A stretch of DNA of 38,171 nt, taken from positions 1-38,171 of the forward strand of contig VGSS01000015.1 in NCBI GenBank assembly GCA_016874935.1, written 5' to 3'. Source of the stretch: Deltaproteobacteria bacterium (GTDB lineage Bacteria; Desulfobacterota; BSN033; UBA1163). The translations under genes and the position numbers were made by a program. Shown here piece by piece: positions 2,945-28,919 of this stretch (position 1 is the stretch's first letter; each line of letters starts with the position of its first letter). A model generated the notes under the pieces. It worked only from the letters and a program-made list of their open reading frames with translations, was not told the DNA's origin and did not search any database.

Positions 2945-4474
2945 ATGGAACTGAGCAAATTGATAGAAGGGGTGGAGATCAGAAAGATCGTCGGAGAGAC
3001 CCGGAAGGATATTGAGGGGATTGCCTACCATTCCCGGCAGGTCGGCAAGAACTTCCTCTTTGCGGCCATCCGTGGATTGGAGGCGGATGGCCATCGCTTC
3101 ATAGATGATGCGATCGGGAGAGGGGCGGAGGCCATCCTGTTAGAAGAGGGGCCCGAGATGGGTGGCAGGACCGCCATATTCGTTCCAAGCAGCCGTCAGG
3201 CCCTGGCAAGGGTTGCTTCAAACTTTTATGGCGATCCTTCGGCAAAGATGCGCCTGGTCGGCATCACCGGCACGAATGGGAAGACAACCACCACCTTTCT
3301 CCTCGAATCGATATTGAAAAAAGCGGGGTCCGCGGTAGGCGTGATCGGAACGATCAATTACCGTTACGGCCAGAAGGTCGTTCCCGCATTGAACACCACG
3401 CCCGAATCCCTCGATCTCCAGAGAATTCTTCGGGAGATGTCCGGGGAGGGGATCTCCCATGTGATCATGGAGGTCTCCTCCCATGGCCTTGACCTCGATC
3501 GTGTCTTCGGATGCCAATTCGACGGAGCGGTCTTTACGAACTTCACTTCCGACCATTTAGACTACCATCAGACCCTGGAGCGATATTTTGAAAGCAAGAA
3601 AAAGCTCTTCTTCGAATCGTTGATGAAAAGCCGGAAGACAGGACGGTTTGCCGTGACCAACTCTGACGATCCCAGAGGAGAGGAGATCGTAAGAGGAGTC
3701 GATCTTCCCATCCTCCGTTATGGTCTGGGAAGTTCCTCCGATTTCTCCGCAACAGAGGTGGCCCTCTCCTTCGAAGGCATTTCCTGTCGGGTCAGGACTC
3801 CGAAGGGAGAATTCCCTCTTCATTCGAAGTTGATCGGAAGATTCAACCTCTATAACATCCTGGCCTCAGTGGCAACGGGATTCGGGATGGGACTTCCCCC
3901 GGAGATTCTGAAAGAGGGAGTGGAAGATGTGGAAGGTGTTTCGGGAAGGTTTGAAAAGGTGGCAAACCGAAAGTCCATTCATGTCATTGTGGATTATGCC
4001 CATACCAGCGATGCCCTGGAACGGGTTTTATTGGGTCTGAGAGATACGCTGGTCTATTCCTCACAGAACAGGGGGAAGATCATCACTGTCTTCGGTTGTG
4101 GCGGTGACAGGGACCGGACGAAGCGGCCCCTGATGGGAGAGGTGGCGGGGAAGTATAGCGATCTGGTAGTGCTCACATCGGACAACCCGAGGACAGAAGA
4201 CCCTCTCGCCATCATCGAGGAGGTAGAGAAAGGGTTTCAATCCCTTTCTCTCGAAGAATGGCGTCGAAACGGGATGGAGGCATGGAGATCAAAGAAAGGA
4301 TATCTGAAGGTCCCCGACCGGAGAGAGGCCATCCGGACGGCCATCCAATTGGCCAAACCCGAAGACACGGTTCTGATAGCAGGTAAGGGCCACGAAGATT
4401 ACCAGATCATCGGAAAGAAGAAGATCCCTTTTGATGACCGGATCGAGGTAAGGAAGGCGCTGGAGGAAGTGTGA
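2945..4474 (+). CDS. murE: UDP-MurNAc-L-Ala-D-Glu:meso-diaminopimelate ligase MurE
   Basis: 509 aa cytoplasmic Mur ligase that adds the third stem residue to UDP-MurNAc-dipeptide. The ATP-binding P-loop GTNGKTTTT is at residues 109-117 and the central-domain EVSSHGLDLDR motif follows. The substrate-selecting motif is DNPR (413-416), the form found in meso-DAP-adding enzymes; lysine-adding MurE carries a different residue set there. VDYAHTSDAL and the C-terminal AGKGHEDYQ motif are also present. The start is the first ATG after the repeat spacer, preceded by an A-rich stretch without a ribosome-binding site. The stop overlaps murF (GTGA). Confidence 0.97.
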   Translation: MELSKLIEGVEIRKIVGETRKDIEGIAYHSRQVGKNFLFAAIRGLEADGHRFIDDAIGRGAEAILLEEGPEMGGRTAIFVPSSRQALARVASNFYGDPSAKMRLVGITGTNGKTTTTFLLESILKKAGSAVGVIGTINYRYGQKVVPALNTTPESLDLQRILREMSGEGISHVIMEVSSHGLDLDRVFGCQFDGAVFTNFTSDHLDYHQTLERYFESKKKLFFESLMKSRKTGRFAVTNSDDPRGEEIVRGVDLPILRYGLGSSSDFSATEVALSFEGISCRVRTPKGEFPLHSKLIGRFNLYNILASVATGFGMGLPPEILKEGVEDVEGVSGRFEKVANRKSIHVIVDYAHTSDALERVLLGLRDTLVYSSQNRGKIITVFGCGGDRDRTKRPLMGEVAGKYSDLVVLTSDNPRTEDPLAIIEEVEKGFQSLSLEEWRRNGMEAWRSKKGYLKVPDRREAIRTAIQLAKPEDTVLIAGKGHEDYQIIGKKKIPFDDRIEVRKALEEV

Positions 4475-5907
4475 CATTTCATACCGGAGAGATCCTGAAG
4501 GCCACAGGTGGAAAAATTCTGCAGGGAGGAGATCAGGTTGTTTTCCACGCCATCACCACAGATTCAAGAACCGTGACCGAAGGAGCGCTCTTCATAGCGC
4601 TGAAAGGGGAGAGGTTCGATGGCCACCATTATGCCATCGAAGCCCTGGAGAAGAAGGCGGGCGGAGTGTTGTTGGAAGAGAGTCAGGCCAGCGACATTCG
4701 ATGGAACGCTTATGCACCCAGACCGGTCATCGCTGTAAAGGATACGCTCCATGCCCTTGGGGATATCGCCAGGGATCGGAGACGCAAGTATGGTGTGCCT
4801 ATTGTTGCACTGACGGGAAGCAATGGAAAGACCACGACGAAGGAGATGATCTCCGCCTGTCTCGAGACCACTTTCCCAATACTCAAAACAAAGGGGAATC
4901 TGAACAATCTGATCGGGCTTCCTCTTACGCTCCTCGACCTAACGGAGAAGGAGAGGGTGGTCGTTCTTGAGATGGGCATGAATGTGCCCGGCGAAATCAG
5001 GAGGCTTACAGAGATTGCAGAACCTGACGTGGGACTGATCACCAATATCCAGAGGGCCCATCTCGAAGGGGTGGGGAGCCTGGAGAGGATCAAGGGGGAG
5101 AAGGGGGAACTCTTCCGGAGGATGAGAAGGGATGGATCGATCATCGTCAATCAGGATGACCCCAGGGTGATTGATCTCGGAGAGGAGTTTCCGGGCCAGA
5201 AGATCACTTTCGGAATCGATCATCCTGCCGATGTGATGGCGAGGGAGATACGGGTCAAAGGGAGAGAGGGAACTTCCTTCATTCTCATTCTGGAAGGGGA
5301 GGAGACAGAGGTCCGTCTTCCATTACTGGGAAAACATTTCGTTCACAATGCCCTCTCAGCCATTGCGGCGGCGAGCCTCTTCGGCGTTGAACCGGAGAGA
5401 ACAATAGAGGCCCTGGAGCAATCCCGGCCCTTTCCCATGAGGATGGAAATTCTCTCCCTTGGAAGCGGAAAGACCCTGATCAACGACGCTTACAATGCCA
5501 ATCCGGATTCGATGGAACTGGCCCTCCAGACCCTTTTAGAGGCAAAAGGAAAGGGCAGGGCCATTGCCGTCTTAGGCGATATGTTGGAGCTGGGAGAGTT
5601 TACTGTGGAGGCCCATCGCCAATTAGGAAAGAAGGTTGCAGAGCTTTCGATCGATCTCCTCATGGCCATAGGGGAAGAAGCCCCTGTCGTTGTGGAGTCC
5701 GCCATTCGGGAAGGATTGGGGCATGAGAAGGCAAGAGTGGCGGAGAGCCATTCCGAAGCCGCTTCGATCCTGAGAGAATTTGCCCGGGAAGGAGATTGGA
5801 TACTGGTCAAAGGTTCGAGAGGGATGGCGATGGAAAAGGTTGTTGAGGGCTTGAAAGAAAGGAGGGAGGAAAGAAATGCTCTATCATCTGCTCTATCCTC
5901 TTCATGA
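4471..5907 (+). CDS. murF: UDP-MurNAc-tripeptide:D-alanyl-D-alanine ligase MurF
   Basis: 478 aa, the last cytoplasmic Mur ligase; it attaches the D-Ala-D-Ala dipeptide made by Ddl (encoded downstream) to complete UDP-MurNAc-pentapeptide. The N-terminal substrate domain has [21 protein letters not shown]. The P-loop [10 protein letters not shown] starts at residue 116, followed by EMGMN and [11 protein letters not shown]. The start is GTG, overlapping the murE stop. The last 32 nt overlap mraY, giving a low-complexity C-terminal tail (ALSSALSSS) that may be read-through of an ancestral stop. Confidence 0.97.
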
Positions 5908-6952
5908 GCTGATCTCCTTTTTCAATGTCTTCCGTTACATCACCATCCGAACGGTCTACGCCATTCTGACCGCCCTGCTCATCAGTTTTGTGATCGGTCC
6001 ATGGATCATCGAGAAGTTGAGGACTTTTCAGATCAAGCAGGTGGTGAGGGAGGATGTTCCATCCCGCCATCTCTCCAAGAACGGGACGCCCACGATGGGA
6101 GGAAGCCTGATCCTGATGGCGCTTCTCATCCCGACCCTTCTCTGGGCTGACCTGACGAATCGATATATCTGGATTGTACTGCTGACCACTCTGGGATTCG
6201 GTGCGCTTGGATTTTTTGATGACTACAAGAAGGTCCGGGATAAGAATGGCATGGGCATTAAGGCGCGATATAAATTCCCCATCCAAGCAGCGATGGGTCT
6301 TGCGGCAAGCTGGATTCTGTTCAACACCATTGACCACGATTCAAGACTGATCTTTCCCTTTTTCAAGAGGGTGATGCCGGACCTCGGAAACTGGTACGTC
6401 CTCTTCGGAATGCTCGTCATTGTGGGCACGGCCAATGCCGTCAACCTGACTGATGGCCTGGATGGATTGGCGATCGGACCGGTATTGATCGCCAGCGGCA
6501 CCTTCATCCTTTTCTGTTATCTGGCCGGTCATTACCAGTTTGCCAGTTATCTTCAGATCCCCTTTGTGAAAGGAAGCGGCGAGCTGACGATCTTATGCGG
6601 AGCCCTGCTCGGTTCCGGCCTGGGCTTTCTCTGGTTTAATACCTATCCCGCCCAGGTCTTTATGGGCGATGTCGGTTCTCTGGCGCTGGGAGCGGCCCTG
6701 GGGACGATCGCTGTGGTCACGAAACAGGAGTTTCTCCTGGTGATCGTGGGTGGGATCTTTGTGGCCGAGACGCTTTCGGTCATCATTCAGGTTATCTCTT
6801 TTAAGTTGCGCAGGAAGAGGGTCTTCCGGATGGCGCCCATCCATCACCATTTTGAATTGAAGGGGTGGGCCGAGCCGAAGATCATCGTTCGATTCTGGAT
6901 CATCGGCATCATCCTGGGATTGGTGGCCATCGGCACATTGAAACTAAGGTAA
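5876..6952 (+). CDS. mraY: Phospho-MurNAc-pentapeptide translocase MraY
   Basis: 358 aa polytopic inner-membrane enzyme (about ten predicted helices) that transfers phospho-MurNAc-pentapeptide to undecaprenyl phosphate, forming lipid I. Hallmarks are the DDYKK motif (D115, D116), the [10 protein letters not shown] motif (N190, D193, D196) and the HHHFELKGW loop near the C-terminus. An AGGAGG site sits just upstream inside the end of murF, and the ATG lies 32 nt before the murF stop. Nothing is missing from the catalytic set. Confidence 0.97.
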
Positions 6953-6965
6953 AAGGAGGAATATT

Positions 6966-7034
6966 GGAAGAATGGAACATTGGAATATTGGGTTAAGAAG
7001 TGGCTTACCCATTACTCCATCATTCCATCCTTCC
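6966..7034. repeat. Word-repeat palindromic spacer between mraY and murD
   Basis: The 26-nt left arm (6966-6991, GGAAGAATGG words) and the 26-nt right arm (7009-7034, CCATCATTCC words) are complementary at 20 of 26 positions. A clear AAGGAGG (about 6954-6960) lies upstream of the left arm but has no suitable start codon near it. It looks like the original murD ribosome-binding site, separated from its gene by the spacer. Confidence 0.6.
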
Positions 7035-7044
7035 AGCTGAAGTT

Positions 7045-8388
7045 ATGGATCTTCGCAGCAAAAAAGTACTGGTGGTGGGACTAGCGAGAACAGGGCTGGC
7101 GACGGTCAAATTTCTCAAGAAGAAAGGGGCGATTGTCAGCGCTTCAGAATCGAAGCTCGAAGCGGAGATGAAGGAGGCCGCTTCGGAGTTAGGAGAGATG
7201 TCCATCTCATTGGAGTGGGGAGGGCATACGGTGAGTCACTTTCTCAACCAGGACCTGATCATCCTGAGTCCGGGGGTTGATCCAACCCTCGAACCCATTC
7301 AGAAGGCGCTGGACAGGGGCATCCAGGTGATCAGCGAAACGGAACTGGCTTGTCGTTTTATCAATGTTCCCATCATTGCGATCACAGGCACCAATGGGAA
7401 GACAACCACCACTCTGCTCATCGGAGAGATGCTGAAGGAAGAAGGGAAGAAAGCCGGAGTCGGCGGCAATGTGGGAGAGCCTTTGATCCTCTTCGCGGAG
7501 AGAGGAGATCAATGGGAGATCCTGGTCGTTGAGGTTTCCAGTTTCCAACTGGAAGGGATCGAAAGCTTCCGACCCCAGTGCTCGGTTCTCCTTAATATCA
7601 CCGAGGATCATCTCGATCGTTATTCAACATACGAAGATTATATTGAGGCAAAGATCAAGATTTTTAAGAACCAGAGGGTTGAGGATGTAGCCATCCTCAA
7701 TCAGGATGATCCCATTGTGATGAGGTATGAGAAAAGGGTGAGGGCGAAGAAGTTCTTTTTCAGCCTGAAGGAGAAGGGCGGAGAAGGCGCCTTTTCGAAT
7801 GGTAAAGAGATTTTTCTCAAACTGAACGGATTCGAAGAAACATATTCTTTGAGTCAGTCGCCGCTGAAAGGGATCCATAATGTGGAGAATATGATGGCGG
7901 CCATCATTGCGGCGAGACTCTTCGGCATCTCGAAAGAGGCGATCAAGAGAGTTCTCAACCGGTTCAGGGGATTGGAGCATCGCCTCGAATTTGTCCGGGA
8001 GATTGAGGGGGTTTCCTATTACAACGATTCGAAGGGGACGAACGTGGGTTCCGTCGCCAAGTCGCTTCAGAGCTTTCAGGAACCCATCATTCTGATCGCG
8101 GGCGGGAAGGATAAGAATACGGATCTTCATCCCCTCACGAAGTTGATACAGGGCTGTGTAAGGCGGTTGATTCTGATCGGAGAGGCCAAGGAGAGGATGG
8201 CCCGGGAATTGGGATCTTTGACCGATACGGTCATGGCAGAGACGCTGGAGGAGGCAGTGCTTCTGGCTCACCGGACGGCGAAGAGAGGAGAGATCGTCCT
8301 CCTCTCACCCGCCTGTTCGAGTTTCGATATGTTCAGGGATTACAAAGAGAGGGGAACAGTGTTTAAGGAAGCAGTGAGCCGCCTTTAG
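7045..8388 (+). CDS. murD: UDP-MurNAc-L-alanine:D-glutamate ligase MurD
   Basis: 447 aa from the chosen ATG; the family is usually about 440-460 aa. It adds D-glutamate to UDP-MurNAc-L-Ala. The N-terminal Rossmann-like domain begins MDLRSKKVLVVGLARTG, which matches where family members start. The P-loop GTNGKTTTT begins at residue 115, followed by EVSSFQLE and the YNDSKGTNVGS motif. An in-frame GTG at 7000 would add 15 residues encoded by the repeat spacer; I do not favour it. Neither start has a good ribosome-binding site in place. Confidence 0.95.
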   Translation: MDLRSKKVLVVGLARTGLATVKFLKKKGAIVSASESKLEAEMKEAASELGEMSISLEWGGHTVSHFLNQDLIILSPGVDPTLEPIQKALDRGIQVISETELACRFINVPIIAITGTNGKTTTTLLIGEMLKEEGKKAGVGGNVGEPLILFAERGDQWEILVVEVSSFQLEGIESFRPQCSVLLNITEDHLDRYSTYEDYIEAKIKIFKNQRVEDVAILNQDDPIVMRYEKRVRAKKFFFSLKEKGGEGAFSNGKEIFLKLNGFEETYSLSQSPLKGIHNVENMMAAIIAARLFGISKEAIKRVLNRFRGLEHRLEFVREIEGVSYYNDSKGTNVGSVAKSLQSFQEPIILIAGGKDKNTDLHPLTKLIQGCVRRLILIGEAKERMARELGSLTDTVMAETLEEAVLLAHRTAKRGEIVLLSPACSSFDMFRDYKERGTVFKEAVSRL

Positions 8389-8401
8389 AAGGCGGAGTGA
8401 T

Positions 8402-8437
8402 GAGTTCGGAGTATAAAAAAATAGAAACTCCGAACTC
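8402..8437. repeat. Word-repeat palindromic spacer between murD and ftsW
   Basis: GAGTTCGGAGT (8402-8412) is exactly complementary to ACTCCGAACTC (8427-8437) across a 14-nt A/T-rich loop. The right side continues with variants of the CCGAACT/CCAAACT word up to about 8458, six bases before the ftsW ATG. The vocabulary is the same as in the murE spacer. Confidence 0.7.
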
Positions 8438-8463
8438 CCAACTCCAAACTCCGAACTAATCAT

Positions 8464-9564
8464 ATGAGATCAAAGGGTAAATTCGATTTCATTCTTCTGA
8501 TGGTGGCCCTGGCCTTGGTGGGAATCGGGATCGTCATGGTCTATAGTACGAGTGCGATCATCGCCGGGGACCGGTTTGGCGATCCCTACTACTTTTTGAA
8601 GAGGCAGGCGCTTTATGCAGGAGCCGGTTTCCTATTGATGATCATGATGATGTTCTTTCCTTACGAGCTACTGAAGCGATTTGCCTATCCCATCTTTGCG
8701 CTTTCCGTTCTGCTGCTCATCGCCGTATTGATCCCGGGAATAGGCCATAAGGCGGGCGGATCGATGCGATGGTTGAAGATCAGCGGCTTCACGTTTCAGC
8801 CCTCAGAATTTGCCAAGCTGGGCCTGATCATCTTTTTAGCTTACTTCCTGACCAAGAAGGAAGACAGGATACGGAGTTTTTCCTTCAGTTTTCTCCCGAC
8901 GATTCTGCTCTCCGGTCTGGTCATCGCACTAGTATTGAAGGAGCCTGATTTCGGGGCGGCTCTCTTTCTGGCGGCCATGGTTTTTATCCTCCTCTTCATG
9001 AGCGGCGCAAGGGTGATCTATATCGCCGGCGCTTTCCTGCTCGCCGCTCCGGTGGCCTACGCCTTTCTAATGAATGCGGAATATCGTTATAAGAGGCTGA
9101 TTGGTTTCATCCGTCCCTGGGAGGATCCCACAGGGACCAGTTTTCAGATCATCCAGTCTTTCCTCTCCTTTGGCTCGGGCGGTCTCTTCGGGCTGGGACT
9201 GGGAGAGGGAAGACAGAAGCTCTTCTTCCTCCCGGCCCCTCACACGGACTTCATCTTCTCCATCATCGGAGAGGAACTTGGGCTGGTGGGTGCAGTGGGA
9301 GTGGTGCTTCTCTTTTTCATCCTGACCTTCAGGGGAATCCAGATCGGAATTTCCATTCAGGATAAGTTCGGTTCCTATTTAGCGCTGGGGATCACCTTAA
9401 TGATCTCCCTTCAGGCAATCATCAATATGGGAGTGGTTCTGGGACTTCTTCCGACCAAAGGGTTGACCCTTCCCTTTGTCAGTTACGGAGGGACCTCATT
9501 GATTGCCAATTTCATCGGGTTGGGGATTCTTCTTCATCTTTCAACCCATGCGGAACGAAGATGA
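8464..9564 (+). CDS. ftsW: Septal peptidoglycan glycosyltransferase FtsW (SEDS family)
   Basis: 366 aa multi-pass SEDS protein that polymerises lipid II at the septum together with FtsI. Family motifs are the GGSMRWLKI region, GTSFQIIQS, the extracellular HTDFIFSIIGEELG loop (H260, D262) and SYGGTSLI near the C-terminus. Its place between murD and murG is the canonical one. There is no Shine-Dalgarno sequence before the ATG, which directly follows a repeat spacer. The stop overlaps murG by 4 nt. Confidence 0.95.
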   Translation: MRSKGKFDFILLMVALALVGIGIVMVYSTSAIIAGDRFGDPYYFLKRQALYAGAGFLLMIMMMFFPYELLKRFAYPIFALSVLLLIAVLIPGIGHKAGGSMRWLKISGFTFQPSEFAKLGLIIFLAYFLTKKEDRIRSFSFSFLPTILLSGLVIALVLKEPDFGAALFLAAMVFILLFMSGARVIYIAGAFLLAAPVAYAFLMNAEYRYKRLIGFIRPWEDPTGTSFQIIQSFLSFGSGGLFGLGLGEGRQKLFFLPAPHTDFIFSIIGEELGLVGAVGVVLLFFILTFRGIQIGISIQDKFGSYLALGITLMISLQAIINMGVVLGLLPTKGLTLPFVSYGGTSLIANFIGLGILLHLSTHAERR

Positions 9565-10655
9565 GGTGTGTCATTGCCGGAGGGGGCACAGGGGGCCACC
9601 TCTTTCCAGGTATGGCGATAGCCGAGGCTTTTATGGAAAGAGAGACGGGCAACGAAGTCCTCTTCATCGGAACGGAGCGAGGAATTGAAGCCAGGGTTCT
9701 GGCCGGAGGGAGATTTAATCTGAAGATGATCCACGCCATGCCCATTAAAGGAAGATCCATCACGGGGAAATTGAACGCTCTCTTGGCTCTTCCGAAGGCC
9801 GTTGCCGAGGCGCTGGCCATCCTGAAGGAGTTTCAACCCCAGATTGTTTTAGGCGTGGGAGGATATGCTTCCGGGCCAGCGGTTCTGGCCGCCTCTCTTC
9901 TCAGGATGAAGAGAGCCATCCATGAGCAGAATGTGATTCCGGGAATGACGAATCGATTTTTAAAAAGGTTGAGCCAGCGAATCTTTGTCTCTTTCGAAGA
10001 GACGATGAGATACTTTCCTGAAAGGAAGACCGTTGTGACCGGCAATCCGATCAGAAAGGAGATAACTGCCTCTGGGTCTTCACGGGAGAGGGGAGATCGG
10101 TTCACCATTCTCGTCTTCGGCGGCAGTGCGGGTGCGCACCGAATCAATGCGGCCATGATGGAAGCCCTGGTCTCGCTCCAGGATATGAGATCCTCTTTGA
10201 GATTGATCCATCAGACCGGCAAAGAGGATCTGGGTTTCGTTTCAAAAGGCTATGAGGAGAAAGGATTCGAAGCAGAGGTGATGCCTTTTATTGATGAGAT
10301 GGCGAGCTGTTACCGGAGGGCTGGCCTGGTGATCTGCCGGTCAGGGGCGAGCACGGTTGCAGAACTGGCGGTCTGCGGAAAGGCATCGATTCTCATCCCT
10401 TACCCCTATGCGGCTCATAACCACCAATGGATGAATGCAAAAAGGCTGGTTGACCGGGGTGCGGCCAGGATAATTCTGGATGAAGAGTTGGAAGGCCCTT
10501 CGCTTTCGGAGACGATTGTCCACCTTTACCATCATCCGGAGGAAAGGGAGAGGATGGAAGAGGCGATCCGGAGAATGGGGCGTCCGAGGGCAGCCGAAGA
10601 GATCGTGGAACATTGCTATGAGTTAGTGAGAACCTCGCTGGAGGCAAGAGGTTAG
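9561..10655 (+). CDS. murG: UDP-GlcNAc:lipid I N-acetylglucosaminyltransferase MurG
   Basis: 364 aa GT-B fold, membrane-peripheral enzyme that converts lipid I to lipid II. The glycine-rich loop GGGTGGHLFPG at the N-terminus, HEQNVIPG, the second glycine-rich loop GGSAGAHRIN (many homologues have Q in the fourth place) and CRSGASTVAEL are all present. ATG overlaps the ftsW stop (ATGA). The stop codon sits in the first bases of a repeat spacer. Confidence 0.97.
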   Translation: MRCVIAGGGTGGHLFPGMAIAEAFMERETGNEVLFIGTERGIEARVLAGGRFNLKMIHAMPIKGRSITGKLNALLALPKAVAEALAILKEFQPQIVLGVGGYASGPAVLAASLLRMKRAIHEQNVIPGMTNRFLKRLSQRIFVSFEETMRYFPERKTVVTGNPIRKEITASGSSRERGDRFTILVFGGSAGAHRINAAMMEALVSLQDMRSSLRLIHQTGKEDLGFVSKGYEEKGFEAEVMPFIDEMASCYRRAGLVICRSGASTVAELAVCGKASILIPYPYAAHNHQWMNAKRLVDRGAARIILDEELEGPSLSETIVHLYHHPEERERMEEAIRRMGRPRAAEEIVEHCYELVRTSLEARG

Positions 10656-10721
10656 AGGTTGGAGGCGAAAGATCTGGCCTCAAGTCTCGCTGTGCGAGAC
10701 AATCCTCAAACCTCCAACCTC
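10655..10721. repeat. Nested hairpin spacer between murG and murC
   Basis: GAGGTTGGAGG (10655-10665) pairs exactly with CCTCCAACCTC (10711-10721). Inside the loop, GTCTCGC (10684-10690) pairs with GCGAGAC (10694-10700). The two stems use unrelated words, as if one palindrome had landed inside another. The murG stop codon overlaps the left arm. Confidence 0.65.
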
Positions 10722-10738
10722 AAACGGTGATTTGAGCG

Positions 10739-12109
10739 ATGTATCGAAAAGGGAAGATTAGAAACATCCATTTTGTCGGAATCGGGGGCATCGGGATGAG
10801 CGGAATCGCCGAGGTTCTGCTTAACCTGGGTTACCGGATCAGCGGATCGGACATGAAAGAGACAGAGGTGACCCGGAGGCTCCAGGCCCTAGGATGCGAA
10901 ATTGATTATGGCCACCGAAGGGAGAATGTGAAAGAGGCAGATGTCTTGGTCGTCTCCTCTGCTATTCGTCCGAATAATCCGGAGATCGAAGTGGCTGAAG
11001 AACGGCTCATCCCCATCATTCCGAGGGCAGAAATGCTGGCGGAATTGATGCGGATGAAGGTGGGCATCGCCATTGCAGGGACCCATGGAAAGACGACGAC
11101 CACCTCCCTCATTGCCACGGTTCTGGGCGCGGCCGGGCTCGATCCAACCGTGGTTATCGGAGGAAGACTGAACAGCATCGGCAGTAATGCGAAGTTGGGG
11201 CAGGGAGAATTTCTGGTTGCCGAGGCGGATGAAAGCGATGGGTCCTTTCTTAAATTGATGCCCACCATCGCTGTGGTGACCAATATTGATCCGGAGCATC
11301 TCGACTACTATAAGGGGATTGAGGAGATCAAGGAAGCCTTTCTCCATTTTCTAAACAAGATTCCTTTCTTTGGGTTGGCCGTGCTCTGCCTCGATCATCC
11401 CAATGTCCAGAGCTTTCTCCCGAAGCTGAAGAAGCGGTTCACGACTTACGGGTTGACCACCCAAGCAGATTTTCAGGCGGGGGAGATCGAATTTGACGGG
11501 ATCTCCACCGCCTTCGATGTCATCTGTCAGCGAAAAGAGATTGGAAGGTTAAGGATCCGGATGCCAGGCCTTCATAATGTCTATAACGCGCTGGCTGCGG
11601 TGGCCACTGCTTTTGAGCTTGACATCCCGTTTCAGGTCGTTCAGGAGGCCCTGAAGGATTTCGGCGGGATTCAAAGGCGGTTTCAGGTTAAGGGCGAGAA
11701 GAAGGGAGTCCTCATCGTGGATGACTATGGCCATCATCCCGTGGAGATCATGGCCACATTGAAGGCGGCGAAAACAGGATGGAAGAGAAGGATCATCGCT
11801 GTGTTTCAACCCCATCGCTACACCCGGACGCAAGCCCTCTTCCAGGATTTCCTCGCTGCCTTTTACGATGCGGATGTCCTCATCCTGACGGATATCTATG
11901 CGGCTGGAGAGGAACGGATGGAAGGGGTGGAAGCAAAAGCTCTCTTTGAAGGGATCAGGGAGTACGGTCATAAGGATGTGACCTATATTCCCGACAAGAA
12001 GGAGATCGTTGGCCATCTTCTCGATGTCGTTGTCCCGGGAGATATGGTGATCACTCTGGGCGCAGGAGATATCTACCAGGCGGCAGAGGAGCTGATGAGT
12101 CGTTTGTAA
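10739..12109 (+). CDS. murC: UDP-N-acetylmuramate:L-alanine ligase MurC
   Basis: 456 aa, the first Mur ligase, adding L-alanine to UDP-MurNAc. The N-terminal [12 protein letters not shown] loop binds the UDP substrate, the P-loop [10 protein letters not shown] is at residues 114-123, followed by [19 protein letters not shown] and the FQPHRYTR motif typical of MurC. The ATG follows a spacer and has only a weak GGTGA about 12 nt upstream. A short spacer separates it from murB. Confidence 0.97.
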
Positions 12110-12116
12110 TTTCGGA

Positions 12117-12150
12117 ATGCGGATTTCGGAATTCATTCCGCACTCCGCAA
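12117..12150. repeat. Short word-repeat palindrome between murC and murB
   Basis: Two 16-nt arms (12117-12132 and 12135-12150) made of GCGGA/TTCGGA words are complementary at 13 of 16 positions, with only two bases between them. The same vocabulary recurs after murB (13065-13106) and before the receiver-LpxC gene (about 27288-27312). Confidence 0.55.
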
Positions 12151-12158
12151 TGGGATGA

Positions 12159-13064
12159 ATGATTCGGGACTGTAAAAAAGAGGCGAGGGGTTTGATTGAG
12201 GGAAGGGTGCTCTTCGAGGCGCCGATGAAGAAATATACCTCCATCAAAGTGGGAGGGCCTGCGGAGTGCCTCTTCTTTCCGAAGAATGTGAAGGAACTGA
12301 GAAAGGTGATCCGGCATGCCCGGAGAAAGAAGATACCCGTCTTCATTTTAGGGAAAGGGACCAACCTCATCGTGAAAGACAGGGGAATTCGAGGCTGGGT
12401 GGTCAGCCTGACGCAGGGGATGAAGAAGGTCCGGATGGATGGAGAGTATATAGAGGCTGAAGCCGGTTGTTCGCTTCAACAACTGGTTCAATTCTCCATT
12501 CAAAAAGGGCTTGCCGGACTTGAACCTTTTTTTGGCATTCCGGGGACCGTGGGCGGTGGGTTGGCCATGAATGCCGGCGCATGGGAAGCAGAGTTGAAGG
12601 ATGTTCTCCATTCTGTCACGTTGATGAAAGAGGATGGAAAGGTGGTGGAGAGACCCCGGTCAAGACTCCGGTTCTCTTATCGAAGCCTGACCTTACCGCC
12701 ATCCTGGATCATCCTGAAAGGAAGCTTCCATCTGAGGAAAGGGAGAAGAGAGGAGATCCTTGAGCGGGTGAAGTCCTTTTCAGAGATGAGGAAGAGAACA
12801 CAGCCTCTCGACTTCCCGAGCGCAGGCTCCATTTTTAAGAATCCGGAGGAAGGACCCGCAGGAAAGTGGATTGACGAGATCGGGTTAAAAGGGTTCAGCA
12901 TGGGGCATGCAATGGTTTCAGATCGCCATGCCAATTTTATCATCAACCTGGGAAAGGCGACCGCGGAGGAGATTCTCCGCCTCATCGAGTGGGTGGAGAG
13001 AAGGGTCTATGAAGAGAAGTCCATCTCCCTAAAAAGGGAGGTGAGGGTGGTGGGTGAAGCATAA
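12159..13064 (+). CDS. murB: UDP-N-acetylenolpyruvoylglucosamine reductase MurB
   Basis: 301 aa FAD-dependent, NADPH-using reductase that makes UDP-MurNAc from the enolpyruvyl intermediate. The TSIKVGGPAE motif and the FAD-binding ILGKGTNLIV and GIPGTVGGGLAMNAGA segments are present. The catalytic serine is S224 in SAGSIFKNP. The length and absence of the long insert fit the shorter type II (B. subtilis-like) class rather than the longer E. coli type. The ATG at 12159 is the first plausible start after the spacer; GGGATGA just upstream may serve as a weak ribosome-binding site. Confidence 0.95.
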   Translation: MIRDCKKEARGLIEGRVLFEAPMKKYTSIKVGGPAECLFFPKNVKELRKVIRHARRKKIPVFILGKGTNLIVKDRGIRGWVVSLTQGMKKVRMDGEYIEAEAGCSLQQLVQFSIQKGLAGLEPFFGIPGTVGGGLAMNAGAWEAELKDVLHSVTLMKEDGKVVERPRSRLRFSYRSLTLPPSWIILKGSFHLRKGRREEILERVKSFSEMRKRTQPLDFPSAGSIFKNPEEGPAGKWIDEIGLKGFSMGHAMVSDRHANFIINLGKATAEEILRLIEWVERRVYEEKSISLKREVRVVGEA

Positions 13065-13106
13065 TGCGGAATTCGGAATGCGGATTGCGGAATTCGGACT
13101 GCGGAG
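13065..13106 (+). repeat. Tandem 21-bp word repeat between murB and ddl
   Basis: Two adjacent 21-mers, 13065-13085 and 13086-13106, both start TGCGGAATTCGGA. They match at 19 of the first 20 positions. The first begins immediately after the murB stop codon. Unlike the other spacers this one is mainly a direct repeat, though the GGAATTCC-like centre of each unit is itself partly palindromic. Confidence 0.75.
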
Positions 13107-13122
13107 TTTTGACGGGAAGTAG

Positions 13123-14067
13123 ATGAAGGATCAACCACTTAAAAAGAGGAAGATCGGTGTCCTGATGGGAGGCCTGTCCCGGGAGAGGGAGATTTCGCTC
13201 CGGACAGGAAAGGCTATATGGAAGGCGCTCGTTGAAAAAGGATATACGGCCTGTCCTGTGGATGTGGGCCGTGACATTGCGGAAAGGTTGGGGAAAGAGA
13301 AGATTGAAATTGCCTTTCTCGCTCTCCATGGAAGGTACGGGGAGGATGGGACGATTCAGGGGATGCTGGAATTGATGGGGATTCCCTATACCGGATCGAG
13401 CATTCTGGCGAGCGCGCTCTGCCTTCACAAGATCATGGCCAAAAAGATCTTGCTCCAAGAGAATGTCCCGACACCCCCATTCGAGTTCCTCAAACAGGAG
13501 GAGGTTGAGAAAGAGGCGCCGAGAAAAATCTCCCTTCCCCTTCCGCTTGTGGTCAAGCCCGCGCGGGAGGGATCGACGATCGGAATCTCCATTGTCAGAA
13601 GGGAGGAAGAACTTCTTCGTGCATTGAAGGAGGCAGGGAAATACGATGAAGAGATCCTCATTGAAGCGTTTATGAAGGGCAAGGAGATCACCGTGGGCAT
13701 TCTCAATGACATTCCCCTTCCCATCATCGAGATCGTCCCCAGGAGTGGGTTCTATGATTACCATTCGAAATATACGAAAGGGGAGACGGAATATATTATC
13801 CCGGCCCAGATTCCAAGAGAAAAGTATCTCCATGCCCAGGAGATAAGCGTCAGGGCTTTTCACGCCCTTGGTTGCTCGGGCTTCGCAAGGGTGGATCTGA
13901 TGACGGATGAAGAAGGAAATCCCTTCGTCATCGATGTGAATACGATGCCGGGGATGACCGAGACGAGCCTCCTGCCCAAGGCCGCGGAGTTTGTGGGTAT
14001 CTCTTTCGGGGAACTGGCAGAGCGGATTCTTTTAGGGGCTTCGTTAAAGATAGGGGGTGGAGGGTAG
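13123..14067 (+). CDS. ddl: D-alanine:D-alanine ligase
   Basis: 314 aa ATP-grasp enzyme that makes the D-Ala-D-Ala dipeptide used by MurF. The N-terminal GGLSREREISLRTG motif, the ALHGRYGEDGTIQG motif (H69, G70), the ATP-grasp VVKPAREGSTIG and the C-terminal VIDVNTMPGMTETSL metal-binding loop are all intact. Some family members of this size belong to the DdlB group. A GGGAAG just upstream of the ATG may act as the ribosome-binding site. Confidence 0.96.
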   Translation: MKDQPLKKRKIGVLMGGLSREREISLRTGKAIWKALVEKGYTACPVDVGRDIAERLGKEKIEIAFLALHGRYGEDGTIQGMLELMGIPYTGSSILASALCLHKIMAKKILLQENVPTPPFEFLKQEEVEKEAPRKISLPLPLVVKPAREGSTIGISIVRREEELLRALKEAGKYDEEILIEAFMKGKEITVGILNDIPLPIIEIVPRSGFYDYHSKYTKGETEYIIPAQIPREKYLHAQEISVRAFHALGCSGFARVDLMTDEEGNPFVIDVNTMPGMTETSLLPKAAEFVGISFGELAERILLGASLKIGGGG

Positions 14068-14106
14068 AGGGCGGAAAGCGGTTCCTTCCACCTTCGGGAA
14101 ACCAAT

Positions 14107-14925
14107 ATGGGTGAAGAAAAATTTTTCAGACCGGAGAAGAAAGGGGACGAAAGGATAGGAGAGAGATTTCAGGAAATTCTGAAAAGAGCCACCCGGGTGG
14201 CCTTTCATGTCCTGATTCTTATCATCTTCTTCTTTGCGGGCCATCAATTGTATGTCCGCCTTCTGGAGAACTCCTTCTTCCAAGTGAGGGAGGTAGAGGT
14301 CAGGGGTTGCCGGAAAATTCCGGAGAAAACCATTCTCTCGCTCGCAAGAATCGAAGGAATGCCCAATCTTTTTATCCTTTCGCTGAAGGAGATCTCCAGG
14401 AGGGTGGAAGTCCATCCCTGGGTTGAGTATGTGAAGGTGAGAAAAATTTTCCCTGACAGAGTGTTGATCCATATTGAGGAGAGGAGACCGATGGCCATCC
14501 TTCAACTGGAGGAACCTTTTTATATTGATTCGAAAGGGGTGATCTTTTCGAGGGTGGGAGATCGGGATGAATATAATTTCCCCTTTCTCACCGGTTTGAG
14601 CCGGCAGGCGTTTGATCAAGACCCGGTCACGGCAAAACATCTCGTCACGAAAGCCCTCGAATTTTTAAGGATCGCGGATCAGGAAAGGGCTCCTCCCCTA
14701 AATGGGGTTTCGGAGATCCGGATGGAGAAGATTTTCGGGATTCAATGTTTCACGCAGGCCGAGGGGGTGGAGGTGAGAATGGGATGGGATCACTTTGGAG
14801 AAAAATTGAGGAGATTGTCCCTTATCTGGACCGATCTTCAGAGAAGGGAAGTCTCGGCAGCGTCGATCGACTGCAGTGACTTGAAGAGAATGGTGGTCAA
14901 AAAGATTTCCCGCAGGTCAAATTAG
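14107..14925 (+). CDS. ftsQ: Cell division protein FtsQ
   Basis: 272 aa bitopic protein: cytoplasmic tail, one transmembrane helix (about residues 30-50), a POTRA domain (about 58-127; it begins VREVEVRGCRKI and contains the HPWVEYVKVRKIFPD motif), then the FtsQ beta-domain with IEERRPMAIL and YIDSKGVIF. It recruits the FtsW/FtsI synthase to the septum. It is followed after 18 nt by ftsA, which has a strong AAAGGAGG site. Confidence 0.93.
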   Translation: MGEEKFFRPEKKGDERIGERFQEILKRATRVAFHVLILIIFFFAGHQLYVRLLENSFFQVREVEVRGCRKIPEKTILSLARIEGMPNLFILSLKEISRRVEVHPWVEYVKVRKIFPDRVLIHIEERRPMAILQLEEPFYIDSKGVIFSRVGDRDEYNFPFLTGLSRQAFDQDPVTAKHLVTKALEFLRIADQERAPPLNGVSEIRMEKIFGIQCFTQAEGVEVRMGWDHFGEKLRRLSLIWTDLQRREVSAASIDCSDLKRMVVKKISRRSN

Positions 14926-14943
14926 AAAGGAGGTGATCCGAAG

Positions 14944-16170
14944 ATGGGCAAGAGGGATTCGCTGGTCGTCGGATTGGATATCGGGACGACAAAGATTTGC
15001 ACGGTTGTAGGGGAGATGGCAGATGGCCAGGTCAATATCATTGGCCTCGGGACCTTTCCCTCAAAGGGATTGCGCAAGGGTGTGGTTATCAATATCGAAA
15101 GCACGGTCCAATCCATTAAAAAAGCGGTGGAAGAAGCCGAACTGATGGCCGATTGCCACATCACTTCCGTCTATGCGGGCATTTCAGGAGGACATATTAA
15201 AGGGATCAACAGCCATGGGGTCATCGCCGTCAAGAACAAGGAGATCACGCCGAATGATGTAAAGCGGGTCATCGATGCGGCGAGCGCGGTGGCCATCCCG
15301 ATGGATCGGGAGGTCATCCACATCATCCCTCAGGAGTTCATCGTGGACGATCAAGACGGAATCAAGGATCCGGTCGGGATGTCAGGAGTGAGATTGGAGG
15401 GGAGAGTTCACATCGTCACCGGCGCCATTACCTCTGCCCAGAACATCATCAAATGCGCCAACCGCGCCGGTCTCGATGTGAATGACATCGTCCTGGAACA
15501 ATTAGGTTCGAGCGAAGCCGTGCTGACCCAGGAGGAGAAAGAACTGGGGGCGGCCATTATCGATATCGGCGGCGGAACGACGGACCTGGTCATCTTTTCG
15601 AATGGGTCGATCAAACATACAGCCGTCTTCTCCCTGGCCGGAAATCATATCACGAACGATATCTCCGTAGGACTTCGCACGCCTGTGGAGGAGGCCGAGA
15701 AGATTAAGATTCGTTATGGGTGTGCGCTCACCTCTCTGGTCCGGAAGGATGAGACGATCGAAGTCCCCAGCGTAGGGGGGAGAAAGCCCCGTGTCCTTTC
15801 GAGGCAAACCCTTGCGGAGATCATTGAACCCAGGGTGGATGAGATCCTCGGTCTGGTTCGAGATGAATTGGTGAAGATGGGTTATGGGAATCTTGTTGCC
15901 TCAGGCGTGATCCTTACAGGGGGGAGCGCTATCCTCGAAGGGATTCCCGATCTGGCCGAACAAATCTTTAATCTGCCTGTCCGAAGGGGGATCCCCATGG
16001 GAATCGGGGGTCTGGTCGACCTGGTCAACAGCCCGATCTATGCCACCGGAGTGGGCCTCGCCCTTTATGGAAGTCGAAATATGGTCCAGAGTCGGTTTAA
16101 GGTGGGCGAGGGGAATATCTTCAGCAAAGTTACCCGGCGGATGAAAGAATGGATAGGAGAATTCTTTTGA
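14944..16170 (+). CDS. ftsA: Cell division protein FtsA
   Basis: 408 aa actin-like ATPase that tethers FtsZ filaments to the membrane. Phosphate-1 motif GLDIGTTKIC lies near residue 10, phosphate-2 motif DIGGGTTD begins at D207, and the ILTGGSAIL adenosine motif is near the C-terminus. The last residues (about 392-408, KVTRRMKEWIGEFF) form the amphipathic membrane-targeting helix. AAAGGAGGTGATCCGAAG before the ATG is the strongest ribosome-binding site in the cluster. A 155-bp hairpin-forming spacer separates it from ftsZ. Confidence 0.97.
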   Translation: MGKRDSLVVGLDIGTTKICTVVGEMADGQVNIIGLGTFPSKGLRKGVVINIESTVQSIKKAVEEAELMADCHITSVYAGISGGHIKGINSHGVIAVKNKEITPNDVKRVIDAASAVAIPMDREVIHIIPQEFIVDDQDGIKDPVGMSGVRLEGRVHIVTGAITSAQNIIKCANRAGLDVNDIVLEQLGSSEAVLTQEEKELGAAIIDIGGGTTDLVIFSNGSIKHTAVFSLAGNHITNDISVGLRTPVEEAEKIKIRYGCALTSLVRKDETIEVPSVGGRKPRVLSRQTLAEIIEPRVDEILGLVRDELVKMGYGNLVASGVILTGGSAILEGIPDLAEQIFNLPVRRGIPMGIGGLVDLVNSPIYATGVGLALYGSRNMVQSRFKVGEGNIFSKVTRRMKEWIGEFF

Positions 16171-16204
16171 TGAATAACCAATTTCCAAGCACCAATCATC
16201 AAAT

Positions 16205-16302
16205 AAGCTCCAATAACCAATATCCAAACTTCAATGAGTTTTGGTTATTGGAATTTGGGTATTGATAATTATTTGGAGTTTGGAATTTGGGTATTGGAGC
16301 TT
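16205..16302. repeat. Long word-repeat hairpin between ftsA and ftsZ
   Basis: The 30-nt left arm (16205-16234) and 30-nt right arm (16273-16302) are complementary at 26 of 30 positions. Both are made of iterated CCAATAACCAA / TTGGTTATTGG words; more copies of the words fill the loop and the flank at 16175-16200, so alternative pairings exist. It ends about 12 nt before the ftsZ ribosome-binding site. Confidence 0.8.
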
Positions 16303-16325
16303 AATCTTCTAAAAAGGAGGAAGAT

Positions 16326-17543
16326 ATGATCGAATTTGACGAGAACAGAAACATGGCCGCCAAGGTCAAGATCATCGGGATCGGAGGAGGAGGGAATAAT
16401 GCTTTGAACACCATGATTTTGAGCCACCTCACCGGCGTCGAATTTGTCGCAGCCAATACCGATGCTCAGGCGTTGGCGGCAAACCTGGCCCCGATGAAGT
16501 TCCAGCTGGGCGCCAGTTTGACCAAAGGCCTGGGAGCCGGCGCTAATCCGGAAGTCGGGAGAAAGGCGGCTCTGGAAGATGTGGAGATGATCCGCGAAAT
16601 CCTGAAGGGGGCGGACATGGTCTTCATCACCGCCGGCCTGGGTGGAGGAACCGGCACAGGCGGGGCTCCTGTGATCGCAGAGGTGGCTCGCGAGATGGGT
16701 GCGCTCACCGTAGCCATCGTCACGAAGCCCTTCCACTTTGAGGGAAAGAAGAGGATGAAACAGGCGGAAGAAGGTCTGGCCAATCTGAAGATGACAGCGG
16801 ATGCCCTGATCACCATTCCGAATCAACGACTTCTGAGCATCAGCGGCAAGAATATGACCTTACTGGAGACCTTTAAGAAAGCGGATGAGATTCTCTTCCA
16901 TGCGGCCAAAGGGATTTCGGATATCATTGTCGGCCATGGGATTATCAATCTCGATTTTGCCGATGTACGGGCCGTCATGTCTGAAACCGGAATGGCGATG
17001 ATGGGAACGGGAATTGCTTCCGGAGAAAATCGGTCAATGGAGGCCGCCCAGAAGGCGATCTCCAGTCCGCTCTTAGAGGATATCTCGATCGAAGGGGCAA
17101 GAGGGCTGCTCATTAATATCACCGGCGGAGAGAATATGACGCTGAGCGAGATTAATGAAGCGACGGGCCTCATCCAGAAAGAAGCTCATGAAGATGCAAA
17201 TGTCATCTGGGGGATGGTGATCGACCCATCCATGAAAGAGGATATCCGGATTACCGTTATTGCCACCGGCTTCGGAAAAGCCGTGGAGAAAAAGGTGGAT
17301 AAACCGGTTTCATCTGGGCTGAAACGATTTTCTCATATTCCCGGTTTCAAGGATCGCAGCAAGGAGATTCCCCCCTTCTCCATCAGCGTCAAGGAGGGGA
17401 ACCGGGAAACCCCCGCTTTTATGAGAAGGGTAAAGGCCAATGAACGATTCGATGAGTTGAAATTGGATTCTCCGTCCGATTTCGCCATTGAGGATGAGGA
17501 CCGTTTTGACATCCCGACTTTTTTAAGGAAGCAGGCGGACTGA
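16326..17543 (+). CDS. ftsZ: Cell division GTPase FtsZ
   Basis: 405 aa tubulin homologue that forms the Z ring. The tubulin signature GGGTGTGG is at 106-113. The T7 synergy loop NLDFAD is at 208-213, supplying the catalytic aspartates. The C-terminal peptide [11 protein letters not shown] (395-405) is the docking site for FtsA and ZipA-type partners, and a variable linker precedes it. The first glycine loop reads GGGGNNALN where many homologues have GGGGNAVN, a small variation. AAAAGGAGGAAGAT precedes the ATG. It is the last dcw gene here; lpxC does not follow directly as it does in E. coli. Confidence 0.98.
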
Positions 17544-26257: not shown

Positions 26258-27286
26258 ATGCGATGCAATTTGATCAAACAGGGGTATCCCCAGGGAAGCT
26301 GCTTTGTTGAGGTGGAGGGTGGAAAGTCCCTGGCGTGCGAGGCGACGCTCAAAGGATCGGACAGAGGATTGCTCCGGTTAATCTCTGCCGCCCACCTTTC
26401 ACGCCCGGAAAACTATCTCTCTCTCTATCAGTCAGGATGTAACTTCTCCTGCCGGAAATGCCATTCCTGGGCCTTCACCAAAAAGGCCAAAGGGGAATGG
26501 TGGTCGCCTGCCGATGTGTTGAAGGCCTGTAAAGAATATGAAAAGGGGGTGACGATTCGGGAACCCAGGAAGAGAGCCACTGCCTTTCATGCCCATGAGT
26601 CCTGTCGCTGTTGCGGCGCCTGTGTCATGTATGGAAAACGATCCTCCCTCTGTCCCAGAGTGATCCAGAAAAAGGATATCGTTCTGAGCCCTCAAGGATG
26701 GGGGCCTGCGAGGGATATCGTGGCTTTTACCGGAGGAGATCTTACCTGTTGTCCGGAATTTTATATCGAATGTTCGCATCTGATCAAATCAGAGACCCGC
26801 CTCTGGATTCTGATTGAAACCAATGGCTATGGGCTGACCCCCCAGAACCTCGATGCATTGAAGGAGGCAGGAATTGATTCTTTCTGGCTCGATATCAAGG
26901 CTTATGACGGAACGGACCACAAATGGCTGACCGGCTGTTTCAACCGCCACATCCTAAGGCTTCCTGAAGAGATCATCAAAAGAGGGTTTGTCCTGGAAGT
27001 CCTTTCCCTTTATATCCCTAACCTGGTTGAAATCCCCCAGCTGAAGAAGATCGCCCGGTTGCTCTTTGATGTGGATCCTGAGATCCCCTTTACGATCCTC
27101 GCCTTCTTCCCTGAGTATCAGATGAAGCGATACAGAGGCCCGAAGGTCTCAGAGATGATCTCGGCCTACAATGAGGTCAAGGCTGTAGGCCTGGTTAATG
27201 TGAGGCTGGGGAATACGGGGATTTTTGCATCATCCGAAGAGGATCACCACCTTCTAAAGGAGAAGGTGGGGGCGGGGAACTATTGA
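26258..27286 (+). CDS. PflA-like radical SAM enzyme with extra cysteine cluster
   Basis: 342 aa. The radical SAM cluster motif CNFSCRKC (C61, C65, C68) sits in a SLYQSGCN context similar to pyruvate formate-lyase-activating enzyme relatives. Residues 116-132 hold C116, C118, C119, C122 and C132-P, which could bind a second Fe-S cluster. FTGGDLTCCPEFY and WILIETNGYG match the GGE-like and core-strand positions of the fold, and FWLDIKAYDGTDHKWLTG is typical of activases. No glycyl-radical enzyme is nearby, so the substrate is unknown. The ATG at 26258 has no good ribosome-binding site. Confidence 0.75.
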   Translation: MRCNLIKQGYPQGSCFVEVEGGKSLACEATLKGSDRGLLRLISAAHLSRPENYLSLYQSGCNFSCRKCHSWAFTKKAKGEWWSPADVLKACKEYEKGVTIREPRKRATAFHAHESCRCCGACVMYGKRSSLCPRVIQKKDIVLSPQGWGPARDIVAFTGGDLTCCPEFYIECSHLIKSETRLWILIETNGYGLTPQNLDALKEAGIDSFWLDIKAYDGTDHKWLTGCFNRHILRLPEEIIKRGFVLEVLSLYIPNLVEIPQLKKIARLLFDVDPEIPFTILAFFPEYQMKRYRGPKVSEMISAYNEVKAVGLVNVRLGNTGIFASSEEDHHLLKEKVGAGNY

Positions 27287-27379: not shown

Positions 27380-28705
27380 ATGGAGAAAAAAGTCCTCATC
27401 GTGGATGATGAGGAGAGAGTGGTCCGGTCGGTTACCGGTGTTCTCGAAGACGAGGGTTTTCGGGTTGCCGCGGCCCAAAGCGGAGAGGAAGCAATCGAAG
27501 CCTTTCAGCGAGAAAATCCCGATGTCACCCTCCTCGATATCTGGATGCCGGGGATGGATGGCATCGAAATTTTAAAACGCTTTAAGGGAATGGTTCCCGA
27601 TTGCCAGGTGATCATGATTTCAGGCCATGCGACGATTTCCACTGCCATGGCTGCCGTCAAGCTGGGGGCCTTCGACTTCATTGAAAAACCCATTTCTCTG
27701 GATGTTCTCCTTATGACGATTCGTCGGGCCCTCGACCGCCAAATGGAATTATCGAGGGACGAGCAACCACGGGGGCTCCCCTCTGAAAAAGCGGATATCT
27801 CTTCTCCTCTCATTTCTTCGATCCCTGAGGCGGTTGCTCCCAAAGAGTCTCCGAAGAGAAAATCAACCTCCCTCACTCTTCAGCAGACGATTAGAAAGAG
27901 CGTCGTCCTCTACGGAACAGGGCTCCATTCCGGGATGAAGACCGGACTTCTCCTTCAACCTCTCCCACCTCATAGCGGTATCCTTTTTGGAAACATCTCG
28001 TATGATGAGGTGGTCCCGGCCCATCTCGATTATGTCCAGACAACCGAATTTGCCACCTCTCTGAAAAAGGGAATGGCCATCGCCAAGACGATCGAGCATC
28101 TGATGGCAGTGCTCCATGCCTATCGCATTACCAATTTAATGGTGAAGATGATCGAGGAAATCCCGATCATGGATGGCTCTGCCCTGGAGTTCTGCAAGAT
28201 CATCGAGGAGGCCGGGATCGAGGAGCAGGAGGAGAGGGCAAACGAAATCGTGATCGATCGAAGGTTCGAAGTCGTCCATAAGAACAAATCGCTCATCATT
28301 GAACCGGCGGAAACCTTTTCCATTCATTATTTTTTAGATTACCCGTCTCCCATCGGACAGCAGACTCTCGATTTCGTATTGGAAAATGAGGAGAAATTCA
28401 AAGAGCAGATCGCTCCTGCGAGGACCTTCGGGTTTTTGAAGGATATCGAGATGCTCGAGCGGATGGGATTGGGCAGCGGGGGACGTCTCCACAACTTCAT
28501 CCTGGTGGACGATGAAAAGATTGTCAACACGGAACTGAGATTCTCCGATGAGTTTGTCCGGCATAAGATTCTCGACCTGATCGGTGATTTCTATCTACTC
28601 AATCGTCCGGTCCGGGGCAAAGTGACGGCCCACCTGACCGGCCATACAGAGAATATTGCCATGATGAAAAAGATACAGGAAGGGATACCGGGAAAGGAAC
28701 GCTAA
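27380..28705 (+). CDS. lpxC: Response-regulator receiver domain fused to LpxC (lipid A deacetylase)
   Basis: 441 aa. Residues 1-125 are a receiver domain: acidic pair D9/D10, phosphoacceptor D53 (LLDIWMPGMDG), MISGHAT and the conserved K103. A Ser/Pro linker (about 126-165) leads into a full LpxC (167-441), the zinc enzyme that deacetylates UDP-3-O-acyl-GlcNAc in the committed step of lipid A synthesis. The catalytic E239-H240 (IEHLM), zinc ligands H395 and D399 (VRHKILDLIGD) and H422 (TGH) are intact, as are IPIMDGSA and ARTFGF. AAAGGGGGAAAGT precedes the ATG at 27380. An in-frame ATG at 27296 would add 28 hydrophobic residues from repeat DNA; I reject it. It is one uninterrupted frame, so the fusion is genuine. 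Confidence 0.92.
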   Translation: MEKKVLIVDDEERVVRSVTGVLEDEGFRVAAAQSGEEAIEAFQRENPDVTLLDIWMPGMDGIEILKRFKGMVPDCQVIMISGHATISTAMAAVKLGAFDFIEKPISLDVLLMTIRRALDRQMELSRDEQPRGLPSEKADISSPLISSIPEAVAPKESPKRKSTSLTLQQTIRKSVVLYGTGLHSGMKTGLLLQPLPPHSGILFGNISYDEVVPAHLDYVQTTEFATSLKKGMAIAKTIEHLMAVLHAYRITNLMVKMIEEIPIMDGSALEFCKIIEEAGIEEQEERANEIVIDRRFEVVHKNKSLIIEPAETFSIHYFLDYPSPIGQQTLDFVLENEEKFKEQIAPARTFGFLKDIEMLERMGLGSGGRLHNFILVDDEKIVNTELRFSDEFVRHKILDLIGDFYLLNRPVRGKVTAHLTGHTENIAMMKKIQEGIPGKER

Positions 28706-28719
28706 TACAGATTCAATAG

Positions 28720-28866
28720 ACCAATAACCAAATTTCAATAACCAAATAAATTCCAAATTCCAATAACCAAACAACAAAATGTTCAATAAATGGATGATTG
28801 GTTATTATTTGGCGTTTGCCTGCCTGCCGGTAGGCAGGGAATTTGGTGTTTGGTTATTGTTGCATT
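28720..28866. repeat. Word-repeat spacer with inserted GC palindrome
   Basis: CAATAACCAAACA (28761-28773) pairs exactly with TGTTTGGTTATTG (28847-28859). Other CAATAACCAAA copies flank the left arm and ATTGGTTATT (from 28797) flanks the loop. Between the right-hand words sits the 20-mer palindrome 28819-28838 (CCTGCCT...AGGCAGG), of quite different composition, apparently inserted later. It separates the receiver-LpxC gene from the HTH gene. Confidence 0.7.
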
Positions 28867-28919
28867 GTCTAATGCGTTTGTATTAAATAAACCGGCCCTT
28901 TTGAGGAGGAGGAAGAGAG

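Follow-up and report, generated by a model that had tools for sequence, protein, structure and literature searches.

Receiver-LpxC fusion proteins as putative remodelled response regulators of an NtrY-type two-component system

In response regulators with an enzyme output, such as CheB, PleD and others, a receiver is combined with an enzyme in place of a DNA-binding domain. In these examples, the enzyme generates or degrades a signal or modifies other components of signalling. In the NtrY-NtrX system, the sigma-54 response regulator NtrX carries AAA and DNA-binding domains behind its receiver. For LpxC, the UDP-3-O-acyl-GlcNAc deacetylase, the known direct control in E. coli acts via proteolysis of the enzyme. 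Passages of a published study describe LpxC as a committed, regulated step in other bacteria and name lpxC as the single mapped target of DVU2934 of Desulfovibrio vulgaris (PMC3333781). In R. sphaeroides lacking NtrYX, the lpxC transcript is reported to be up 8.8-fold and LPS to be raised, an effect judged indirect by the authors in the passages at hand (PMC7240162). An excerpt of a sigma-54 regulon study names LpxC among the enriched groups in Myxococcia (PMC12316311), and the available text of a 2025 review on lipid A regulation contains no match for receiver or response regulator, NtrYX being cited in its references (PMC12444477). Among openly licensed PMC papers, including PMC3333781, PMC4114195, PMC12444477, PMC7240162 and PMC12316311, no description of a receiver-LpxC protein was found in titles, beginnings of abstracts and passages.

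Here we report on such a protein, encoded within the window, i.e. the whole stretch of 38,171 nucleotides of a Deltaproteobacteria bacterium that was analysed. LpxC stands where NtrX has its AAA and DNA-binding domains, and in contrast to the CheB/PleD type the output is a committed enzyme of an envelope pathway. The protein resembles DVU2934 and R. sphaeroides NtrYX in that a two-component system would affect LpxC, but both of these operate at the level of lpxC transcription.

Domain architecture and genomic context

The receiver-LpxC fusion protein comprises 441 aa and is encoded at 27380..28705 on the + strand. The initial annotation had read this region as a single uninterrupted frame, and indeed both Pfam domains are complete therein (Response_reg, residues 5-114, 110.8 bits; LpxC PF03331, residues 168-433, 284.2 bits at a cut-off of 27). 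By eye, a purine-rich stretch is visible ahead of the ATG of the 27380 frame, while a second in-frame start upstream at 27296 makes a longer version possible. The NtrX-type receiver, as assigned by Pfam, the best NCBIfam receiver model, tree grouping and conservation, encompasses residues 1-120 (27380..27739, +) and possesses all of the response-regulator residues D9/D10, D53, S81 and K103, with the codon of the phosphoacceptor D53 located at 27536-27538 (+). It is followed by a loose linker characterized by low pLDDT and low identity (residues 121-163; 27740..27868, +) and by the LpxC deacetylase domain (residues 164-436; 27869..28687, +) including E239, H240, T349, H395, K396, D399 and H422. 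Five of these residues (E239, H240, H395, D399, H422), which we take to be the catalytic and zinc-binding residues of LpxC, line up with LpxC sequences from the PDB. Together with D9/D10, D53 and K103 they are found exactly where they had first been annotated, and all nine residues are invariant in an alignment of 29 fused proteins.

The LpxC part additionally passes the TIGR00325 model (247.2 bits versus a cut-off of 187.25) and matches solved LpxC in sequence alignments, in which the receiver matches NtrC-type receivers. AlphaFold2 modelling based on a 29-row alignment yielded two well-predicted domains (mean pLDDT 82.8, pTM 0.77) and predicted disorder with pLDDT <50 at residues 128-163; the model comes without inter-domain confidence and is hence silent on domain contact. 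In the Foldseek listing, each of the 50 top PDB folds is an LpxC. The protein thus shares with LpxC the full domain, the catalytic and zinc residues and the fold, and it differs from LpxC by the additional N-terminal receiver. LpxC also occurs within a two-domain protein in the LpxC-FabZ fusion (PRK13188 model). However, our protein reached 205.5 bits with NF009667, which is below the cut-off of 465, and the partner of LpxC is an enzyme in the FabZ fusion but a signalling domain here. The NCBIfam NtrX model NF051870 matched the receiver only (124 bits, below its 600-bit cut-off). Pfam detected the receiver and LpxC alone in the window protein, the sigma-54 AAA domain and the Fis-type HTH being absent.

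The fused LpxC is the sole LpxC match in its genome, which is 90.91% complete, so that a second stand-alone lpxC, for which the initial annotation had proposed to search, was not found there. LpxB and LpxD are located elsewhere in the genome. Neither a histidine kinase nor a second receiver was found in the window, in agreement with the previous assignment as to the kinase. A division/cell-wall cluster on the same strand occupies 751-17543, its last gene ftsZ ending at 17543, ~10 kb before the fused lpxC begins; Pfam identified in six of its genes a transpeptidase PBP, a family-4 glycosyltransferase, a family-28 glycosyltransferase (MurG-like), MurB, FtsA and FtsZ. In some other bacteria, lpxC closes the division/cell-wall cluster as the last gene, as a passage of the published work states for R. 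sphaeroides (PMC7240162). The gene at 26258-27286 encodes a radical SAM protein, and in six related loci its counterpart is situated immediately ahead of the receiver-LpxC gene. The intergenic region following the fused gene (28706-28880) contains CAATAACCAAA-like pieces repeated in direct and inverted orientation as well as the GC-rich near-palindrome TGCCTGCCGGTAGGCAGG, which is found once in the window. In seven loci among L015-L028, the fused gene is adjoined by a divergent gene pair encoding an HDOD protein and a PAS histidine kinase (Pfam for L015), which is possibly a second input to the fused protein.

NtrX, NtrY and sigma-54 promoters in genomes with fused and separate lpxC

The best receiver model in NCBIfam for the fused receiver is NtrX. 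A quick tree was calculated from 87 receivers (122 columns), with a program warning of few columns and long branches. Therein, 38 receiver-LpxC and 2 receiver-AAA-LpxC proteins cluster by their receivers with 9 NtrX receivers taken from genes beside ntrY (SH-aLRT 95) and are separate from the other 38, of which 36 stem from the window's genome and are an incomplete sample of its receivers. By its sequence, the fused receiver is of the NtrX type, and ntrY is a neighbour of the fused gene in several lineages. Likewise, when LpxC domains were compared, those from 40 fused proteins formed a group of their own (support 99), separate from 63 stand-alone LpxC.

Occurrence of NtrX was assessed with a profile built from 9 genes beside ntrY. 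Leave-one-out scores were 671-786 bits and the best non-NtrX regulator fetched from the window's genome scored 532 bits; the cut-off for NtrX was set at 600 bits in this analysis. In a phylum sample of 148 genomes, LpxC is fused in 34 (24 receiver-LpxC, 10 receiver-AAA-LpxC) and separate in 98, the latter being called from open frames that measure 281-393 aa or are shorter, while 4 genomes contain fragments alone and 12 lack a match. NtrX of at least 600 bits is present in none of the 34 fused genomes but in 89 of the 98 with separate lpxC (Fisher 1.4e-23, kinship ignored). Families f11, f29 and f51 hold both states, and in each of them the fused members lack NtrX whereas the separate members possess it. 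Weaker NtrX-like matches of 552-575 bits are present in 6 of the 34 fused genomes (G004, G007, G008, G011, G068, G160) and are read as another regulator, because similar second matches occur in several genomes with a strong NtrX. NtrY, on the other hand, is encoded in 34/34 fused genomes versus 3/9 separate-lpxC genomes without NtrX, namely G089, G117 and G134 (Fisher 1.4e-5, kinship ignored).

With lpxC as a separate gene, ntrX usually comes after ntrY. Among the 88 separate-lpxC genomes with NtrY in the phylum sample, 32 have the starts of lpxC and ntrY at most 6 kb apart on one contig. The order lpxC - DUF4390 gene - ntrY - ntrX was observed in G018, G019, G026 and G034 (DUF4390 checked for G034 and G018), and DUF4390 genes between lpxC and ntrY are located at L168:5898-6497 and L171:5192-5755. 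The fused gene is directly preceded by ntrY in 10 of the 34 fused genomes (G076 and G111 judged from coordinates) and also in L011-L014, unlike the fused gene of the window, which does not adjoin ntrY. The fused genome G067 possesses a separate lpxC as well, which adjoins its ntrY on a short contig.

A further 21 fused genomes were reached via named loci; their completeness is not known and one is a repeat (G165 = G030). NtrY was found in 19 of them, the remaining two (L016, L021) being without a match at 1e-100. NtrX scored above 600 bits in three (L022, L026, L030), with an intact sigma-54 loop in both NtrX genes that were resolved by gene calling, and a 584-bit match was obtained for the genome of L017. 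One of the three, G181 (L026), possesses a separate lpxC just ahead of ntrY besides the fusion. Given these three further genomes with both, absolute exclusion of NtrX by the fusion had to be rejected, strong as the exclusion is within the phylum sample. Genome G020 (75% complete) carries two fused LpxC genes and has no NtrY match at 1e-100.

The 10 proteins combining receiver, AAA and LpxC all lack a GAFTGA-like motif for contact with sigma-54. Nine of them retain a recognisable remnant of the NtrX HTH, and in nine the AAA-HTH stretch resembles NtrX more closely than any other regulator in the comparison. From their sequences, they look like NtrX-LpxC proteins that are no longer able to contact sigma-54. 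In a rooted tree omitting G123 and G102 (broken frames), 9 receiver-AAA-LpxC rows are nested within the receiver-LpxC rows. Both an ancestral NtrX-LpxC protein with several losses of the AAA-HTH part and a single later gain are possible.

Upstream regions of 330 bases were scanned for what we take to be the sigma-54 promoter consensus, keeping GG and GC fixed and demanding at least 9 of 10 consensus positions. Sites were detected before 24/62 separate lpxC genes versus 0/42 fused genes (expectation from shuffled sequences, 0.29 and 0.27). A second set yielded 14/26 versus 0/30. Related genomes are not independent in these counts, which exclude loci whose upstream stretch was short. Random 350-base stretches reached the threshold in 228 of 20000 cases. 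The sites are located 11-99 bases ahead of the estimated lpxC start. In 11 ntrY-fusion pairs, no site with at least 8 matching positions was found before ntrY within 211-1330 bases upstream. Close promoters at separate lpxC genes were seen at L032, L072, L087, L088, L089, L213, L216, L218, L222, L228, L230 and others, and provide a lead of their own to sigma-54 control of lipid A synthesis.

The presence of a receiver on LpxC in this bacterium and in many relatives suggests that a sensor kinase controls the enzyme directly rather than the lpxC gene. We favour, with a probability of roughly 65%, the reading that Rec-LpxC arose by remodelling from the response regulator that belongs to an NtrY-type two-component system: LpxC would have become the output of the NtrX receiver, so that NtrY would act on LpxC itself and thereby control lipid A synthesis.

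Candidate partner kinase, selection and spread of the family

The NtrY of the window's genome (G000:C42), encoded on a different contig from the fused gene, comprises 749 aa with NtrY_N, HAMP, PAS, HisKA and HATPase domains. Along its length it is 48% identical to the NtrY whose gene adjoins the fused gene in L014, while the next kinase reaches 29% in a partial match. The gene is flanked by a TRAP transporter on one side and by RNase H, zinc-ribbon, sigma-70 and primase genes on the other, and no receiver gene lies beside it. As judged by eye from 10 sequences, the H-box region is nearly identical in NtrY partnered by the fusion and in NtrY partnered by NtrX. This NtrY is a candidate for the partner kinase of the window's Rec-LpxC; in the window's own family the two genes lie apart, so that the pairing is based on gene content there. 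The initial annotation had supposed that the receiver lets a histidine kinase encoded elsewhere act on LpxC. This idea gains strong support from comparative genomics and a named candidate, whereas its functional half, phosphorylation of the receiver with a change in LpxC activity, stays predicted.

The receiver might work without NtrY, being phosphorylated by another kinase or by small phosphodonors, with NtrY serving another regulator. The lack of adjacency in the window's family would agree with this, as would the many kinases and receivers in its genome (44 and 65 matches), the 2 of 21 further fused genomes without an NtrY match and the retention of NtrY without NtrX in three separate-lpxC genomes. 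However, all 34 fused genomes of the phylum sample contain ntrY although NtrX is missing, and ntrY-fusion gene pairs exist in 10 of them and in L011-L014, which renders independence from NtrY improbable. It is more doubtful still that signals flow in reverse, i.e. that the load of LpxC substrate or product alters the receiver and feeds back on NtrY, or that the receiver merely places LpxC at the membrane beside NtrY. The present data would agree with either direction of coupling, and the linker is long and poorly conserved, but NtrY would then be left without a known output where NtrX is lacking, and the position of LpxC as committed, controlled step in other bacteria (in passages of PMC3333781) likewise speaks against these roles.

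Some receivers can act without phosphorylation. Conceivably, the fused receiver is a structural or dimerisation module in which phosphorylation no longer matters, but conservation makes this very unlikely. Among 39 distinct fused proteins, K103 is kept in all and D9, D10 and D53 in 38, the exception being L010 with its broken receiver frame. Mean pairwise identity within 29 proteins is 0.581 for the receiver and 0.589 for LpxC versus 0.179 for the linker. Seven comparisons between the window and close relatives gave non-synonymous/synonymous ratios of 0.041-0.075 for the receiver (6 defined), 0.042-0.059 for LpxC (4 defined; others saturated) and 0.23-0.85 for the linker; for seven other pairs, the receiver ratio is 0.010-0.184. 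Judging from these ratios, the receiver is under strong purifying selection, about as strong as that on the LpxC part, while the linker is relaxed.

The initial annotation had also proposed to search for the domain pair and to map its phyletic spread, which revealed a widespread receiver-LpxC family and disposed of the notion of a unique oddity. Among the first 110 LpxC loci (8 contigs counted twice), the receiver is present in 47, including the window's own copy, and absent in 63. In total, 68 fused proteins distinct by their last 200 residues were collected, the window protein included; three are damaged or cut, with broken receiver frames in L010/G102 and G123 and a stop at the contig end in L033. 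Among the labels given by the sequence records are Deltaproteobacteria, Syntrophaceae, Syntrophorhabdaceae, a Polyangiaceae, a Thermodesulfovibrionia and an Acidobacteria bin. An assembly error at the junction, named beforehand as a possible refutation, or a binning artefact can be dismissed even though many source genomes are metagenome assemblies, because the same joint recurs in 68 distinct proteins from independent genomes, and the LpxC domains form one group in the tested set.

Proposed rewiring of lipid A control

In the preferred reading, control of LpxC by an NtrY-type system, relatives would employ NtrY together with NtrX, a sigma-54 activator with a transcriptional output, with lpxC often adjacent and preceded by a sigma-54 promoter. 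As far as the excerpts go, the published work on DVU2934 and NtrYX fits such an older, transcriptional wiring. In the fusion, the NtrX-type receiver is joined to LpxC instead, and the AAA and DNA-binding parts are absent. NtrY would sense an envelope signal and transfer phosphate to D53, upon which the receiver may alter activity, pairing or lifetime of LpxC.

On balance, we think it likely that a control layer was short-circuited in much of the phylum and in relatives labelled outside of it: control of lpxC transcription by NtrYX and sigma-54 would have been replaced by action of NtrY on LpxC, via an NtrX-LpxC protein that first lost contact to sigma-54 and then its AAA and DNA-binding parts. 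Separate genes, receiver-AAA-LpxC and receiver-LpxC all exist in living lineages, which makes this change testable. If the reading is true, a sensor kinase sets lipid A synthesis without a transcription step or a separate regulator protein. A kinase-controlled LpxC would constitute a new coupling of envelope sensing to outer-membrane synthesis, and the families show how a transcriptional two-component pathway may become a direct enzyme switch.
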